64,000 bases of DNA, from assembly GCA_947598585.1 (NCBI GenBank), contig CANQFK010000002.1:1-64000 (forward strand), given 5' to 3'. The stretch comes from an uncultured Clostridia bacterium. GTDB lineage: Bacteria > Bacillota > Clostridia > Christensenellales > Pumilibacteraceae. The translations under genes were made by a program, and so were the position numbers. This document shows, piece by piece, positions 24,492-64,000 of this stretch (positions are counted from its first letter, which is position 1; each line of letters starts with the position of its first letter). The notes beneath the pieces are model-generated. The model was not told the DNA's origin and ran no database searches. It was given only the letters and a program-made list of their open reading frames with translations.

Positions 24492-27400
24492 ATGGCACAG
24501 GAATTCGCGCATCTTCATGTTCATACCGAATACAGCCTTTTGGACGGAGCGATCCGCCTCAACAAGGTCTTTTCGCATTGCGACGAACTTGGTATCAAGG
24601 CGGTCGCCATAACCGATCACGGCAATATGTACGGCGTTCTGGAATTTGTCAAGTGCGCCATAAGGTATACCGACGAAAAAGCCGATCCGTTTGAATTTAT
24701 AAGGGATAAGCGCGAATGTAAGGTCAAGCCCATTATAGGTTGCGAGGTCTATATGACCGAGGATATGAACGTCAAAGCGACCGATAGCGGCAAAATGCCC
24801 AAAAACAATCACCTCATCCTGCTTGCGAAAAACGAAACGGGCTACAAAAACCTCATAAAGCTCGTCAGCCTCGGCTATACCCAAGGATTTTACTATAAGC
24901 CGCGTATCGATTTCGAGCTGTTAAAGCGGCACAGCGACGGGCTTATTTGCCTTAGCGCGTGCCTTGCGGGCATAATTCCCCAAAGATTGCTTGTAGGCGA
25001 CTATGAGGGCGCCAACGAGTGGGCGGTAAGATTCAAAGAACTGTTCGGCGAAGATTTTTATATCGAGCTCCAAGACCACGGCATAGCGGAACAGCGGCGC
25101 ATTTTGCCCGCGCTCAGGGACATTGCAGTCAAAAACGGCATAAAAATGGTGGCGACAAACGACGCCCACTATCTCGAAAAGAAAGACGCGAAAATGCAAA
25201 AGGTGCTTCAATGTATCTCTTTTCGCAAGACCATGTCGCCCGACGAGGACGATATGCAGGGCTCCGCGAGCGAACTTGCGAGCGGCGACTATGCGTACTT
25301 TCCCACAAAGGAATTTTACCTTAAAAGCGGCGATCAGATGGCGGAACTGTTCAAGGGTTACGAGGGCGCAGTCACAAACACGCTCGAAATAGCGGACAAG
25401 TGTGATTTTCGCTTCTTCCGAAAGGAAAAATTGCTCCCAAGCTACACGCCGAGCGACGGTAGCGAACCGTACGAATTTTTGCGCAAAATGTGCTTCGACG
25501 GGCTCAAAAGGAAATACGGCGAACTCACTCGGGAGATCCTCGACAGGGCGGAATACGAACTCGGCGTAATAAAAAAGCTGGGATTTGTGGACTATTTCCT
25601 TATAGTATGGGACTTCATACACTTTTCCGAAACGCACGACGTTCCCGTGGGACCGGGACGAGGCAGCGGCGTGGGCAGTATCGTTGCATACGCGATAGGC
25701 ATAACAAAGGTCGATCCGCTTAAATATTCGCTCATATTCGAACGATTTCTCAACGAAGAGCGCGTAAGCAATCCCGATTTCGATATAGACTTTTGCGTTG
25801 ACGGGCGCGAACGCGTCATTCAATATGTAATAGAAAAATATCACGAGCCAAACGTTTCGCAGATAGTGACGTTCGGCACGCTTGCGGCAAAAGCCGCGGT
25901 CAAAGACGTGGGCAGAGTATTCAATCAAACCTTTGCCGACGTGGACAAGATAACCAAACTCATGCCCAAAATGATGGGCAAACTTCACATCGAGGACCTG
26001 TTGGGGCTAAATGAGAAAAAAAAGAGCGACGTCAATCCCGTCATTCCCGATCTCGTCGAACTGTACAATAACGACCCGATGAGCAAAAAGATCCTCGATA
26101 TGGCAATGCAGATAGAGGGAATGCCCAGACAGACGGGCATGCATGCGGCGGGCGTCATAATATGTAAGGACGTGATCTCGGACCACGTTCCCATGGCAAT
26201 GTCGGGCGACGGAATAGTCACCACTCAGTTCAACATGATAGAGTGCGAGGAGCTCGGACTGTTAAAGATGGACTTTTTGGGACTGAGGACTCTTACCGAC
26301 ATAAACAAGGCGGTCAAATACGTCAAGCAGACCAAGGGGATCGACCTCGACTTTTACGCCATGGGCTATGACGATCCCGAAGTTTACAAGCTGATAAGCG
26401 ACGGCGACACGCACGCCGTGTTCCAACTCGAAGGCGAGGGGATAAAGCGCTTTATGCGCGATCTTCGCCCGACTTCGCTCGAAGACGTAATAGCGGGAAT
26501 TTCGCTCTATCGTCCGGGTCCTATGGATAAGATAGGCATTTATGTATACAACAAGCGTCACCCCGACGAGATAGTTTACGATCACCCGCTTCTCGAACCT
26601 ATCCTCAAAGTCACATACGGCATAATGGTCTATCAGGAGCAGGTAATGGAGATCGTGCGAAAACTTGCGGGCTATTCGTTCGGACGCGCGGACATAGTGC
26701 GACGAATGATGGCGAAAAAGAAAATGGCGGCGATGCAAAAGGAGCGGGAGATATTCATCAACGGCGACGGAAAAAATATCAACGGGTGCCTGAAAAACGG
26801 CGTTTCGGCTGAGATCGCCAACAAAATTTTCGACGACATGATAAGTTTCGCGTCGTATGCGTTCAACAAATCCCATGCCGCCGCGTATGCCGTGCTTGCC
26901 TACCAGACGGCGTATCTAAAACGCTATCACACGGTGGAATTTATCACCGCGGTGCTCAACAATCGCATAGATTCCATCGAGGAGATAACCAACTATCTGA
27001 CATATCTCAAAAACAGAAATATCCCCGTACTTCCTCCCAATATCAACAAGTCATATCCCGATTTTGCGGTCGAGAACGGCGGAGTCCGAATAGGCATGGC
27101 GGCGATAAAGAATGTCGGACATTCGGTGGTGGAGGAGATAGTCAAAGAGCGCGAGGAAAACGGCGAATTCAAATCGTTTGTGAAATTCGTCGAAAGAATG
27201 GCGGAGCGGGCAAAGCGAAGCAAACAACAGGGATCAAACGGAGCCGCTCTCAACAAGAAAATGCTCGAAAACCTCATTTTTGCGGGTACATTCGACTGTT
27301 TCGGCAACACGCGAAGCGAACTTATAGCCGTTTACGAAACGGTGCTCGACCGTGCAAACAAGGACGTCAACGCGCGTGCGTCGGGGCAATTCTCCTTTTT

Positions 27401-28157
27401 CGACATGGACGAAAGCGCCGAATTTGTCATTCCAAAACGCAAGGAGTATCCGCGCATGGAGAAGTTGCGCATGGAAAAACTTGTTGCGGGCGTGTATCTT
27501 ACGGGACATCCGCTCGAAGAATATCGCGCCGAACTCGAAGAATTTCCGTACAACTCATCGATGCTGACCGTAAAGGCGGACGGCGACAAAAAGGAAGATA
27601 TTTCCGACGATGAGGAGGAAAACAAGGATTTCGACGCGCCCGAAATAAACGAAAACACAAGGCTTACTCTCGGCGGCATGCTGGTGGAGGCAGAACGAAA
27701 ATTCAGCAAAAGCGGAAAAGAATTCGGAGTAGCTAAACTCGAAGATCTGTACGGCACGGTGGATATCATGCTTACGGGCTTTAAGATGAGCAAATACAAG
27801 AGCTTATGGCAGAGCGAAAGATTGGTAAAAATAACAGGCCGACCGTCTATCAAAGAGGACAGTATCACCGTTTGGGCGGACACGGTCGAGCCGTGGGAGA
27901 TCGAAAAAAAGCAGGAGCAGGTCAAAACGAATAAAATGCTTTGCCTGTACATGAGTTTCGAGGCGATAGAGCAAAAGACGTTCGACGATATCCTCGACGT
28001 GCTTACGGCGTATCCGGGCGACGACGAGGTATATATAAAGAACACCGATGACGACAAGGTTTCCCGCATAGGAACAAAGGTCAACGCTTGCGAAATGCTC
28101 AAAGGCGAACTCTTCGGAGTGAGCGGCGTAAATAATGTCGAGATTTTCGGCAAATAA
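24492..28157 (+). CDS. dnaE: DNA polymerase III alpha subunit, DnaE type
   Basis: 1221 residues. The N-terminal PHP domain looks metal-competent (HLHVHTEYSLLDG near residue 7, ITDHGNMYG, NDAHYL). The palm has GPGRGSGVGSIVAYAIGIT and the catalytic PDFDIDFC aspartates, then the finger region (MDFLGLRTLTD, VFQLEGEGIKRFMRDLRP) and a helix-hairpin-helix. The C-terminal OB domain starts around residue 1050 (TRLTLGGML). Since polC at 62044 lacks a polymerase, this may be the main replicative polymerase, unless another polC exists elsewhere. GGAG precedes the ATG. Confidence 0.97.
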   Translation: MAQEFAHLHVHTEYSLLDGAIRLNKVFSHCDELGIKAVAITDHGNMYGVLEFVKCAIRYTDEKADPFEFIRDKRECKVKPIIGCEVYMTEDMNVKATDSGKMPKNNHLILLAKNETGYKNLIKLVSLGYTQGFYYKPRIDFELLKRHSDGLICLSACLAGIIPQRLLVGDYEGANEWAVRFKELFGEDFYIELQDHGIAEQRRILPALRDIAVKNGIKMVATNDAHYLEKKDAKMQKVLQCISFRKTMSPDEDDMQGSASELASGDYAYFPTKEFYLKSGDQMAELFKGYEGAVTNTLEIADKCDFRFFRKEKLLPSYTPSDGSEPYEFLRKMCFDGLKRKYGELTREILDRAEYELGVIKKLGFVDYFLIVWDFIHFSETHDVPVGPGRGSGVGSIVAYAIGITKVDPLKYSLIFERFLNEERVSNPDFDIDFCVDGRERVIQYVIEKYHEPNVSQIVTFGTLAAKAAVKDVGRVFNQTFADVDKITKLMPKMMGKLHIEDLLGLNEKKKSDVNPVIPDLVELYNNDPMSKKILDMAMQIEGMPRQTGMHAAGVIICKDVISDHVPMAMSGDGIVTTQFNMIECEELGLLKMDFLGLRTLTDINKAVKYVKQTKGIDLDFYAMGYDDPEVYKLISDGDTHAVFQLEGEGIKRFMRDLRPTSLEDVIAGISLYRPGPMDKIGIYVYNKRHPDEIVYDHPLLEPILKVTYGIMVYQEQVMEIVRKLAGYSFGRADIVRRMMAKKKMAAMQKEREIFINGDGKNINGCLKNGVSAEIANKIFDDMISFASYAFNKSHAAAYAVLAYQTAYLKRYHTVEFITAVLNNRIDSIEEITNYLTYLKNRNIPVLPPNINKSYPDFAVENGGVRIGMAAIKNVGHSVVEEIVKEREENGEFKSFVKFVERMAERAKRSKQQGSNGAALNKKMLENLIFAGTFDCFGNTRSELIAVYETVLDRANKDVNARASGQFSFFDMDESAEFVIPKRKEYPRMEKLRMEKLVAGVYLTGHPLEEYRAELEEFPYNSSMLTVKADGDKKEDISDDEEENKDFDAPEINENTRLTLGGMLVEAERKFSKSGKEFGVAKLEDLYGTVDIMLTGFKMSKYKSLWQSERLVKITGRPSIKEDSITVWADTVEPWEIEKKQEQVKTNKMLCLYMSFEAIEQKTFDDILDVLTAYPGDDEVYIKNTDDDKVSRIGTKVNACEMLKGELFGVSGVNNVEIFGK

Positions 28158-34653: not shown

Positions 34654-34656
34654 ATA

Positions 34657-34771
34657 ATCGCTTAGGGGCGAGGTGCAAATCCTCACCGACGGTTATAGTC
34701 CGTGAAGCCGCAATGGCCCGATTGGGTGAAATTCCCATACCGACGGTTACAGTCCGGATGAAATAAGCGAT
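34657..34771 (+). promoter_or_regulatory. FMN riboswitch (RFN element)
   Basis: Conserved RFN segments are present in order: AGGGGCGAGGTGCAAATCC, CACCGACGGTTATAGTCCG, GAAGCC, TTGGGTGAAATTCCCATACC, GACGGTTACAGTCCGGATG. The closing P1 stem ATCGCTTA (34657-34664) pairs perfectly with TAAGCGAT (34764-34771). FMN binding should lower expression of the riboflavin-uptake gene downstream and with it the rest of the operon. Confidence 0.95.
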
Positions 34772-34790
34772 CGAAAAAATATTTTCGCGC

Positions 34791-59777: not shown

Positions 59778-61016
59778 ATGCAATTCATCATCAAAGTTCT
59801 GTATATCATACTTGCTATAATGATACTTCTGCTTATGATAACCATTCATGAGTTCGGACACTATATCGCAGGTAAGATACTCGGATTCAAGATCGAGGAG
59901 TTTTCGATAGGATTCGGACCGAAGATCTTTACTAAAAAGAAAAAGAACGGCGAGGCGTTCTCGATACGCTGGTTGCCGCTCGGCGGTTATTGCGCCTTTG
60001 CGGGCGAGGGGGACGACGAAAAAATTCTTGCGCCCGAAAAGATGAAAGAGAGCGTAAGATCGTCGGACGAAACGGCGACCGAAACAGGGGCAAAAGCGAA
60101 AGACGGCGAGGCGGCGAAAGGCGCCGAAGTAAGAGCGGAAGATAACGCGACGGAGAGAACGGAAAAGAAGTTCAACGATCAGCCCCCCTGGAAACGCATA
60201 ATAGTGCTTATGGCGGGCGGCGTATTCAACCTGCTTTCGGCGATAGTGTTTTCGTTCATCTTTATAGCTTTCGGCGCGGTGGGCGGAGCGAGCGTTCAAA
60301 GCGTATATCAAAGCGTCGAGCCCGAAACTCGATACACATTGCAAGCGGGCGACAAGATCGTGTCCATAGACGGACAAAAAATAGATTTCTATCACTCCAT
60401 TCAGGATGAGATGGCGGGCAAAAGCGACGGCGACGTTATCGAAGTCGTAGTGCTGAGAAACGGTGAGGAAATGTCGGTAAATGTCACGCTTCATAAATAC
60501 GACCCCAATTACGAATTCGACGGAAGCCCGTCGGAGAGCGGATCGGAACTTCCCAAGGACGAGAACGGCAACATCGTTTATCCCGTCGGCATGGGAATAT
60601 CGCTTTTGCAGGAAAAGGCGAGCATAGGCGACGCGTTCAAGTATTGTGTGCCTTATACGGGCAAGCTGGCATGGCTTATTCTCGGAACGTTCGGCGATCT
60701 CATAGTGGGCAAGGTGCCCATAAATCAGGTGAGCGGTCCGATAGGCACCGTAAATCAGATAGCAAATTACGGCATGCAGAATTGGGCATATCTGCTCTTG
60801 TTGTTGCCGCTCATAGCAGCCAATCTCGGAATATTCAATTTGTTCCCCATTCCCGCGCTCGACGGCGCCAAAGTGGTGTTCACGATAATCGAATGGGTGC
60901 GCGGCAAGCCCATAAATCGCGACATAGAGAACAAGATACATTTTGTCGGTCTTATAGTTTTGTTCAGTCTGGTCATCATTCTGGACGTTGTCAACATAAT
61001 AATGTCCGTGCTATGA
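59778..61016 (+). CDS. rseP: RseP-type site-2 intramembrane protease
   Basis: 412 residues. HEFGH (residues 24-28) in the first helix and the LFPIPALDGAK motif in a later helix give the zinc site; a PDZ domain lies at about 175-250 (LQAGDKIVSIDG). Between the first helix pair and the PDZ is a charged insertion of some 45 residues rich in Glu, Ala, Lys and Thr (about 85-130). Releases membrane-bound regulators such as anti-sigma factors. ispG overlaps the stop. Confidence 0.93.
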   Translation: MQFIIKVLYIILAIMILLLMITIHEFGHYIAGKILGFKIEEFSIGFGPKIFTKKKKNGEAFSIRWLPLGGYCAFAGEGDDEKILAPEKMKESVRSSDETATETGAKAKDGEAAKGAEVRAEDNATERTEKKFNDQPPWKRIIVLMAGGVFNLLSAIVFSFIFIAFGAVGGASVQSVYQSVEPETRYTLQAGDKIVSIDGQKIDFYHSIQDEMAGKSDGDVIEVVVLRNGEEMSVNVTLHKYDPNYEFDGSPSESGSELPKDENGNIVYPVGMGISLLQEKASIGDAFKYCVPYTGKLAWLILGTFGDLIVGKVPINQVSGPIGTVNQIANYGMQNWAYLLLLLPLIAANLGIFNLFPIPALDGAKVVFTIIEWVRGKPINRDIENKIHFVGLIVLFSLVIILDVVNIIMSVL

Positions 61017-62047
61017 TCAAAACAGTAAAGATAAAGGACCTGCTTATAGGCGGGGGAAACAGAATAACCGTCCAGTCTATGACAAACACAAAGACCGCGG
61101 ATATCGACGCCACTTGCAAACAGATACGCGGTCTGATCGACGCGGGCTGCGACATTATACGTCTTGCGGTAAGTAACGACGAGGAAGTGAACGCGTGCAG
61201 AGAATATCTGAGGCGGTTCGACGCGCCTCTTGTCGCCGACATACAGTTCGATTATAAACTTGCGATAAAATGCAGTGACATAGGCTTTGCCAAGGTGCGT
61301 ATAAATCCCGGAAACATAGGCGGAGAGGATAAGGTGCACGAACTCGTCGCGGCGTGCAAAAGCAATCGCACTCCCATTCGCATAGGAGTCAACGGAGGCT
61401 CGCTCGAAAAGGGAGCCGTCGGACGCGGAGCGGAAGCCCTTGCGGAAAGCGCGCTAAGACACGTCGCGCTTTTGGAAAAGTTCGGCTTTGACGACATCGT
61501 TATCTCGGCTAAGTCGAGCGACGTGCGCGTAATGATACAAGCCAATCGCATTCTCAGCGACAGGTGCGGCTATCCTCTCCACCTCGGAGTGACCGAAAGC
61601 GGCGACGCGGAATACGGCACGATAAAGTCGGCGATAGGAATAGGCGCGTTGCTTGCCGACGGGATAGGCGATACGATACGCGTTTCGCTGACAGGCGATC
61701 CCGTAAGCGAGGTGATAGCGGCAAAGAAGATCTTGCGCGCGGTGGGACTTGACAAAAATTATTGCGAGATAATTTCCTGTCCGACCTGTTCGAGGTGCGG
61801 ATATGACTTGCCCGAGATAGTAAGGCAGGTGCGTGAGGAAACAAAGGACATTGATTTTCCTCTCAAAATAGCGATAATGGGTTGCGTCGTCAACGGACCG
61901 GGCGAGGCGAAGGACGCCGATCTCGGAGTCGCGGGCGGCGGCGATAAGGCTGTCTTGTTTACAAAGGGCAAAGTATACAAGACCATTCCCATGTGCGATA
62001 TTTTGCCCGAACTCAGAAGAATGATCGCGGAGCATACGAAAAGGTGA
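61013..62047 (+). CDS. ispG: (E)-4-hydroxy-3-methylbut-2-enyl-diphosphate synthase
   Basis: Sixth MEP-pathway enzyme, a [4Fe-4S] protein. 344 residues from the ATG at 61013, overlapping the rseP stop. N-terminal TIM barrel (VQSMTNTKTADIDAT, ADIQFDYKLAI, RINPGNIG) and C-terminal cluster domain with SCPTCSRCGYDL and MGCVVNGPGEAKDADLG. The stop overlaps the GTG of the next gene. Confidence 0.96.
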   Translation: MIKTVKIKDLLIGGGNRITVQSMTNTKTADIDATCKQIRGLIDAGCDIIRLAVSNDEEVNACREYLRRFDAPLVADIQFDYKLAIKCSDIGFAKVRINPGNIGGEDKVHELVAACKSNRTPIRIGVNGGSLEKGAVGRGAEALAESALRHVALLEKFGFDDIVISAKSSDVRVMIQANRILSDRCGYPLHLGVTESGDAEYGTIKSAIGIGALLADGIGDTIRVSLTGDPVSEVIAAKKILRAVGLDKNYCEIISCPTCSRCGYDLPEIVRQVREETKDIDFPLKIAIMGCVVNGPGEAKDADLGVAGGGDKAVLFTKGKVYKTIPMCDILPELRRMIAEHTKR

Positions 62048-63588
62048 ACGATTTTTTGGGTAAACTTGCGGAAAGCACGGGGCTCGATATGTCCGACGTG
62101 CGCCTTTCCGAATTGAACGTCAATATCAGGCAGGATACGCTTGAAATCGTTTTGGTTTGCCCCGAAGAAAAGGAAAAGGCGCTCACGGACGATATAAAAC
62201 TCATCGAAACGTGCTCGAATAAGATCTTGGGCGTCATGTTCAAGGTCAGGGTAAAGATAAAGAAGAGTTATTTCGACGAGGCATATTTTACATATGCGCT
62301 TTTGGGCTTTTTGCAAAAGTACCCGCTCATAAAGCACAACATAAAGAGCGGGAATTTTCAGTTCGACCGTATCGAGGACGAGATAAAGGTCACCTTAAAG
62401 GCGCCGTCCGCGGTTTGCGAATATATACGAAGCCGAAACATTTTCGGCGAGATAAAAAATTTCATCTTCAACAATTATTGCGAAAAAATTTCGCTCGATT
62501 TGGAAGAAACGGAACTCGAAAACGAGGATATCGACGTTTATATCCCCGAAAAAAAGCTCGTTTACGACTATGAGGGCGGGCGCAAGATAAAGGTGACCAA
62601 CGTCGAATCGTTCATAGGCGATCCCATTTACGAGCGCCCGGGCTATATCGCGGACGTTCGTCAGGGCGACGGCATAGTGCTGTGCGGCACGATAAAGGAT
62701 TTTACCGAACGCAAGCGCGCCATGAAAGAGGGCGACTCGGAGCAGAAATATTTCTTCAAATTCCGCCTCGAAGATTTTACGGGCTCGGTGAATTGCATAT
62801 ATTTCCCGACAAAGAAGTCGCTTGATAAGATAAGGCTGCTCGGCGACGGAAAGGAGATCGTGGCGTTCGGCACCGTCGAATCGAACACGTTCAAGGGCGA
62901 AACATCGCTTTCGTACAGAGTAAGGTTCATATCGCTTTGCACCTTGCCAAAAGATTTCGTCGTCAATCGCGCGCGCATGGTCGTTCCCGACCGATACGCT
63001 CGGATAACCCCCGTCCCGTACGAAAATTACGAGCAGGACGACATTTTCAGACAAAAAGAAGAAACGCCGCCATTCCTTATAGGCAAGAAGTTCGTCGTGT
63101 TCGACCTCGAAACGACGGGGCTCGACAGGATAAACGACAGGATAATCGAGATAGGCGCGGTCAAGATCGAGGACGGAGTTATGACCCAAACATTTTCGAC
63201 GCTCGTCGATCCCGAATGTCTTATTCCCGAAAAGATCGTCGGCATTACGCACATTACCGACGCCGACGTAAAGGGCAAGCCGCTTATCGAGGAAGTAATG
63301 CCCGATTTCTATAAATTTTGCGACGGCGCGACCATGGTGGGACAAAACAGCATACAGTTCGACGTCCCCTTTCTCAGAGCCAAAGCCGAGCCTATGAACA
63401 TATATTTCGAAAACGACCAGCTCGACACAATGCTTTTGGCGAAGAAGTTTTATCCGGGGCTGAGCAAATATACCCTCGACTTCCTTTCGAAAACTTTCGG
63501 CTTTGTCAACGAGGAAGCGCACCGAGCCGTTTCGGACGCGGTGACCACCGCAAAGATATTCATAAAACTTGCCGCTTGTATGAAATGA
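62044..63588 (+). CDS. PolC remnant: N-terminal, OB and DEDDh exonuclease domains only
   Basis: 514 residues from a GTG at 62044 whose GTGA overlaps the ispG stop. Residues ~1-190 match the PolC N-terminal region, ~195-300 an OB fold (GIVLCGTIKDFTERKR), and ~347-514 a complete DEDDh 3'-5' exonuclease: D354/E356 in FDLETTG, D440 in VGQNSIQFD, H493 and D498 in HRAVSDA. Full PolC is about 1440 residues; both PHP halves and the polymerase core are missing, and the frame ends cleanly 12 residues after the exonuclease motif. It sits where polC normally sits. Likely an active nuclease, perhaps a proofreader for DnaE. Confidence 0.85.
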   Translation: MNDFLGKLAESTGLDMSDVRLSELNVNIRQDTLEIVLVCPEEKEKALTDDIKLIETCSNKILGVMFKVRVKIKKSYFDEAYFTYALLGFLQKYPLIKHNIKSGNFQFDRIEDEIKVTLKAPSAVCEYIRSRNIFGEIKNFIFNNYCEKISLDLEETELENEDIDVYIPEKKLVYDYEGGRKIKVTNVESFIGDPIYERPGYIADVRQGDGIVLCGTIKDFTERKRAMKEGDSEQKYFFKFRLEDFTGSVNCIYFPTKKSLDKIRLLGDGKEIVAFGTVESNTFKGETSLSYRVRFISLCTLPKDFVVNRARMVVPDRYARITPVPYENYEQDDIFRQKEETPPFLIGKKFVVFDLETTGLDRINDRIIEIGAVKIEDGVMTQTFSTLVDPECLIPEKIVGITHITDADVKGKPLIEEVMPDFYKFCDGATMVGQNSIQFDVPFLRAKAEPMNIYFENDQLDTMLLAKKFYPGLSKYTLDFLSKTFGFVNEEAHRAVSDAVTTAKIFIKLAACMK

Positions 63589-63662: not shown

Positions 63663-63691
63663 TTGCAAATGCGTTGTAATTGTGATATAAT
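63663..63691 (+). promoter_or_regulatory. rimP promoter
   Basis: TTGCAA (63663-63668), 17-bp spacer, TATAAT (63686-63691) with extended -10 TG. Confidence 0.75.
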
Positions 63692-63712
63692 AACTATGTT
63701 ATTAAGCGTGCT

Positions 63713-63738
63713 GAGAGTGAACCTTTTGGTTCGCTCTC
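63713..63738 (+). promoter_or_regulatory. rimP leader hairpin
   Basis: GAGAGTGAACC (63713-63723) pairs with GGTTCGCTCTC (63728-63738) across a TTTT loop, with one G-U pair. It precedes the rimP start without a U-run. A leader hairpin before rimP is common in Firmicutes. Confidence 0.6.
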
Positions 63739-63755
63739 TGCTTTATGGGTGCAAA

Positions 63756-64000
63756 ATGAAAGTGGTCGAACTGACAAAAAATGCCGTAACGCCCGTTCTT
63801 GCCGACATGGGCTACGAACTTGTGGACGTCGAATATGCAAAGCAATACGGGCAAATGACTCTTACCGTGTATATCTATAAGCCGGGCGGAGTCGATCTCG
63901 ACGATTGCGAAAAGGTGAGCCGCGCGCTCGATCCCGTCATGGACGAACTCGATCCCACGGGCAATGAGCCGTACTCGTTCAACGTTTCGTCGCCCGGGCT
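63756..64000 (+). CDS. rimP: Ribosome maturation factor RimP (partial)
   Basis: The first 81 codons run off the right edge. VTPVLADMGYELVDVEYAKQ, LTVYIYKPGGVDLDDCEKVSRALDPVMDELDP and YSFNVSSPG are the RimP N-terminal domain. RimP helps assemble the 30S subunit and usually heads the nusA-infB operon. No clear Shine-Dalgarno sequence lies before the ATG at 63756; an earlier ATG at 63745 meets a stop at once. Confidence 0.92.
   Translation, partial: MKVVELTKNAVTPVLADMGYELVDVEYAKQYGQMTLTVYIYKPGGVDLDDCEKVSRALDPVMDELDPTGNEPYSFNVSSPG

Follow-up and report, generated by a model that had tools for sequence, protein, structure and literature searches.

A probable descendant of PolC that lacks the polymerase, at the ispG-rimP locus of a Clostridia clade, and its candidate role beside DnaE

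What can a gene be doing that occupies the polC locus, between ispG and rimP, and encodes a protein of 514 amino acids with no polymerase in it? We met such a gene in a 64,000-nt stretch, here called the window, at the start of contig CANQFK010000002.1 from an uncultured Clostridia bacterium (assembly GCA_947598585.1). The features that concern us are the following.

24492..28157, + strand: dnaE, the only C-family DNA polymerase gene found in the assembly; PHP metal site complete
61013..62047, + strand: ispG, conserved upstream neighbour
62044..63588, + strand: PolC-derived stand-alone protein, 514 aa, GTG start (ORF, Pfam/NCBIfam matches, homologs)
62044..62517, + strand: N-terminal domain, residues 1-158, two alpha/beta KH-II-like repeats, homolog of the PolC N-terminus (AlphaFold2 pLDDT 95, hhalign)
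62584..62943, + strand: OB fold, residues ~181-300 (AlphaFold2, hhalign, profile match to 3f2b)
63034..63048, + strand: QDDIF, residues 331-335, putative sliding-clamp motif in the linker between OB fold and exonuclease (pattern)
63085..63579, + strand: DEDDh 3'-5' exonuclease domain, PolC type, residues 348-512, catalytic residues intact
63756..64000, + strand: rimP, conserved downstream neighbour, continuing past the window

The first 4 nt of the 62044-63588 reading frame are shared with the end of ispG, stop codon included. Pfam matches the protein to RNase_T, the DEDDh exonuclease family, at residues 351-506 (E 2e-39), and weakly, below threshold, to an OB fold at residues 213-288; it finds no PHP or Pol3 domain, and no C-family polymerase core (PF07733, fingers, HhH) is present. 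The best NCBIfam match is the PolC exonuclease, and the DEDDh set is complete (D354, E356, D440, H493 and D498). The AlphaFold2 model is confident (mean pLDDT 89), with the two repeats at 1-158, disorder at 160-177, the OB fold to ~300 and, after a linker, the exonuclease at 348-512. The first-pass annotation had described just such a protein, an N-terminal region, an OB fold and an intact DEDDh domain only, and Pfam, hhalign, AlphaFold2 and the five catalytic residues agree with it. The exonuclease domain resembles the solved exonucleases of PolC and epsilon, and also DinG and ExoX. Structural neighbours of the N-terminal domain include DnaA domain I (Z 9.2), DciA and the KH-II domain of ribosomal protein S3; this likeness of a half-domain to replication docking domains and KH-II is, on the model, one of fold only, with modest Z. 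A relation between the PolC N-terminal domain and tau domain V is described in the literature (cited in PMC12926913); tau domain V is absent among the structure matches listed for our N-terminal domain.

Each of the three domains points to PolC. Aligned with full-length PolCs of the same order, the N-terminal part scores an hhalign probability of 97 (E 2.5e-11) and the OB fold 99.1 (E 1.5e-18), the OB region also having a profile match to Geobacillus kaustophilus PolC (3f2b), and the exonuclease is nearer to PolC (2p1j profile, E 3e-58) than to epsilon (~3e-31). The order ispG-polC-rimP had been read as kept, and so it is, with ispG (61013-62047) directly upstream and rimP beginning downstream at 63756; at the related loci described below ispG lies upstream in at least 62 of 67 and rimP downstream in at least 54 of 67, both lower bounds. 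The gap from the stop codon to rimP is just 167 bp. Neither PHP nor polymerase homology was found in it, and no PHP-C downstream, which agrees with the earlier statement that both PHP parts and the polymerase are missing; a PHP remnant past the stop codon, suggested by an overrunning profile match, was rejected when inspection gave no homology. The HLHT..ITDHG segment, present in 22 full PolCs, is absent from the linker between OB fold and exonuclease. Sequence comparison thus supports reading the 62044-63588 gene as a polC descendant after loss of the polymerase core and both PHP parts.

Two RNA elements were also seen in the window. A strong hairpin, AGAGTGAACC-TTTT-GGTTCGCTCT (z -4.2), lies just 5' of rimP at 63685-63757, where the sequence is 76% conserved with a genome of the same genus; it matches no Rfam family at the gathering threshold, and is possibly a rimP leader. 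An FMN riboswitch is found at 34655-34773 (Rfam RF00050, 98 bits).

A pseudogene, a frameshift or an assembly misjoin could also yield a shortened polC, and the genome is indeed a draft, of 59 contigs and 94.6% complete. Against this, the same architecture recurs with clean frames and conserved neighbours in 67 genomes, among them G028, G125, G138 and G042, which consist of 8-20 contigs and are rated 98-100% complete. A stand-alone reading frame 70% identical to ours is present in G055, of the same genus, and since this genome and dozens of others share the architecture the window gene is no misjoin; we reject artefact on this distribution over 67 independent genomes and give it virtually no chance. 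The protein set that we extracted comprises 67 stand-alone proteins and 22 full PolCs. The stand-alone proteins fall in 14 family-level groups of the order to which the window belongs, which we take to be GTDB Christensenellales; carriers include Candidatus Coproplasma stercoripullorum and many Clostridia metagenome-assembled genomes. Where checked, their genomes have no full PolC. Across 151 genomes of the order, carriers of the stand-alone protein have as a rule one PF07733 hit, DnaE, and full-PolC genomes have three, because full PolC matches in two pieces; a few genomes deviate, with none or two hits. A class-wide scan of 291 genomes gave no full-length stand-alone protein outside the order among the matches listed.

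On the DnaE tree, from which the wrong-frame rows G029 and G044 were left out, the difference between full and stand-alone forms maps as one change (SH-aLRT 100). The first-pass annotation had proposed a phylogeny of the exonuclease domain; in a rooted tree of OB fold plus exonuclease the stand-alone proteins form one clade (support 100/99) nested among full PolCs. The order's own PolCs and the stand-alone proteins do not form one clade in the free tree, and their grouping is not rejected (p-AU 0.345). Could the short form be ancestral, with full PolC built from it later? The stand-alone proteins do share a single long branch, and just where it joins the tree is uncertain, which leaves some room for this order of events; full PolC is however found throughout the phylum, whereas the stand-alone proteins make up one clade and lie nested among full PolCs, and we consider the reversal highly improbable. 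Both trees fit a truncation that was old, single and clade-wide.

The gene was said at first sight to be maintained rather than decaying. The clean frame, the 67 genomes and a dN/dS of ~0.06-0.07 in two unsaturated pairs, indicating purifying selection, uphold this; in deeper pairs dN/dS is uncertain, with synonymous sites near saturation. Within the genus of the window, conservation is higher in the exonuclease than elsewhere in the protein. Among full-length PolCs, one (L095, in G012) has a degenerate exonuclease site and another (L097, in G010) has a D-to-Y change in it, while in other members of the phylum PolCs of ~1140-1280 aa (L309-L319) seemingly have no exonuclease insert, an architecture already known (PMC3919608).

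If PolC no longer polymerizes, DnaE is left to do so. In the 59 contigs of the assembly, searches found no PolC core and a single DNA_pol3_alpha domain, which belongs to the DnaE at 24492; a second polC core, for which the first-pass annotation had advised a search, was therefore not found, and a hidden full PolC was rejected on the same 94.6%-complete assembly. This DnaE is a full one, its complete PHP metal site reading HHDHEHCDH, so that the PHP domain does look active as had been claimed. The site is complete in all aligned DnaE rows except G029 and G044, in the wrong frame, and G026, which is truncated, and by a published criterion (PMC12926913) it predicts an active PHP exonuclease. Such a site makes a second proofreader beside the PolC remnant probable. 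DnaE also keeps its own clamp motif, QFSFF; loss of that motif in the window's family had been considered and was rejected on this reading. An insert near residues 505-520 of DnaE (near 26000 in the window) occurs in up to 97% of DnaEs of the stand-alone clade and is absent from 19 of 19 relatives on the full-PolC side; it may be a mere lineage marker. DnaX (L273) is only 410 aa in the 0.9-Mb genome G028, where the C-terminal part of tau is seemingly gone. A clade-wide shortening of DnaX was rejected: sizes overlap, and DnaX is clearly short in one f29 genome only.

The linker of the stand-alone proteins carries, at the place of PHP-N in full PolCs, a QxxLF-type sequence, here QDDIF at residues 331-335. 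A strict form of the motif is present in 37 of the 55 proteins with intact exonuclease, where shuffled linkers would give 2.2; among the 12 with dead exonuclease 3 have it, and among the 22 full PolCs none. The 18 intact proteins without it include some with looser variants. By its pattern QDDIF is a putative sliding-clamp-binding motif. A DEDDh domain with an OB fold and a clamp motif would suit any clamp-directed trimming of 3' ends, and the structural likeness to DinG and ExoX would fit as well, so that the protein might serve in 3'-end trimming during repair or in Okazaki-fragment processing rather than in proofreading for DnaE. We think this quite unlikely for a descendant of a replicative proofreader that has stayed at the polC locus in genomes whose only replicase is DnaE.

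The exonuclease is not kept everywhere. DEDDh is retained in 55 of the 67 stand-alone proteins, across 14 families; the other 12 keep at most one of the five catalytic residues, the losses being three separate events on the DnaE tree (genus g6, which belongs to the window's own family, and the families f17 and f20). In these lineages the whole protein, dead domain included, persists at the same locus. The dead domains are about as similar between relatives as the remaining protein, and synonymous changes exceed nonsynonymous ones, near saturation, which makes these ratios only indicative. Retention after catalytic loss in three lineages makes proofreading unlikely as the sole function. A small separate DEDDh protein occurs in 10 of 15 genomes of the dead lineages and in 3 of 21 others; the Fisher p of 0.002, which makes no correction for kinship, hints that exonuclease activity itself matters. 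In the genome G047 there is no match to RNase_T at all. The separate DEDDh exonucleases of 190-236 aa found where the remnant's exonuclease is dead (L256, L257, L265-L269) are possible replacements for it.

These losses raise the reading that the protein is a scaffold first, in which the KH-like pair and OB fold tie together the clamp, DnaE, DnaX or the helicase, with the exonuclease optional and the DnaE PHP domain doing the proofreading. Besides the three independent losses with the whole protein kept in place, the intact DnaE PHP site and the presence of docking domains of replication (DnaA domain I, DciA) among the N-terminal structural neighbours would favour it. We nevertheless hold it unlikely: DEDDh survives in 55 of the 67 proteins, spread across 14 families, the exonuclease is better conserved than the remainder in the window's own genus, and the small DEDDh protein is in excess just where the remnant is dead (10/15 versus 3/21, the p of 0.002 taking no account of kinship).

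We favour, at a probability of roughly 60%, the reading that PolC was turned long ago into a subunit akin to epsilon, without polymerase, in a replisome where DnaE alone polymerizes, and that this subunit proofreads in trans while bound to the clamp and has a structural role besides. In the ancestor of a large Clostridia clade the PolC polymerase core and both PHP parts would have been lost once, DnaE alone now replicating; homology, locus, single origin and the absence of a second PolC support this step. In Bacillus subtilis PolC is recruited by DnaE, and its exonuclease, given access to the 3' ends, proofreads errors in trans (PMC5627055); had the ancestor resembled this scheme, the polymerase of PolC could go and the trans-proofreader stay. 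The QxxLF motif would dock the remnant on the beta clamp, replacing a tether lost together with the C-terminal clamp motif of PolC, while the N-terminal KH-like pair and OB fold may anchor it on single-stranded DNA and on proteins of the replisome. The DEDDh domain would then trim 3' ends at which DnaE has misincorporated a nucleotide, as epsilon does in E. coli, and supplement the DnaE PHP exonuclease. In three lineages the catalytic site has decayed, and a docking or structural role alone may be left. Homology, locus, single origin, enrichment of the motif and repeated loss of catalytic residues are observations; binding to clamp and DnaE, proofreading and the scaffold role are inferences from them.

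The first-pass annotation had divided the work simply, DnaE replicating and the remnant proofreading. DnaE as sole C-family polymerase and the B. subtilis precedent speak for it; the simple division is not established, because the DnaE PHP site looks active. That annotation was also too narrow, missing the clade-wide event, the clamp-type motif in the linker and the three catalytic losses. A fuller account, to which we give somewhat less than even odds, is that PolC was converted once to an accessory subunit with a new clamp motif and thrice later to a pseudo-exonuclease, a subunit that organizes the DnaE-only replisome and for which proofreading is frequent and dispensable.

In the open-licence literature we found no description of a stand-alone PolC-derived protein. 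A 2014 survey dropped fragments without the polymerase site (PMC3919608), and a 2026 survey was limited to complete genomes (PMC12926913). The stand-alone clade, known here mainly from metagenome assemblies, is a step between PolC plus DnaE1 and DnaE-only replication at which part of PolC is maintained, and a natural experiment that can show how PolC serves DnaE other than by polymerizing. It offers a case of single origin in which a replicase became a separate, probably proofreading, subunit, with three catalytic losses for comparison. As a prediction only, PolC inhibitors, ibezapolstat for one, would find no target in gut bacteria of the clade, and natural insensitivity to such drugs is to be expected.

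Among known systems, PolC itself (TIGR01405, NF001688) has the N-terminal pair, OB fold and DEDDh domain in the same order at the ispG-rimP locus; the remnant differs in having no PHP-N, PHP-C, polymerase core or tandem HhH, in its internal QxxLF motif in the linker, and in length (514 versus ~1430 aa). Like DnaQ, the epsilon of E. coli Pol III, it is a separate DEDDh exonuclease with a clamp-binding-type motif (by pattern only) beside a DnaE replicase, and by analogy may work like epsilon. It is no DnaQ ortholog, its nearest relative being the PolC exonuclease; its motif precedes the exonuclease instead of following it, large KH-like and OB parts stand N-terminal, and its DnaE partner retains an intact PHP site. 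The likeness to the B. subtilis pair (PMC5627055) is that a PolC exonuclease acts, within a ternary complex, on 3' ends that DnaE has made, which here is presumed; there, in contrast, the main polymerase is PolC itself, and DnaE lacks its own proofreading activity. Exonuclease-less PolCs of Clostridia and Negativicutes (PMC3919608) also show an altered PolC domain set on a PolC plus DnaE1 background, and are the mirror image, polymerase kept and exonuclease lost. Polymerase-less PolX-like proteins (PMC12926913) are likewise members of a polymerase family that kept a nuclease and lost the polymerase, in an unrelated family whose nuclease is PHP rather than DEDDh.
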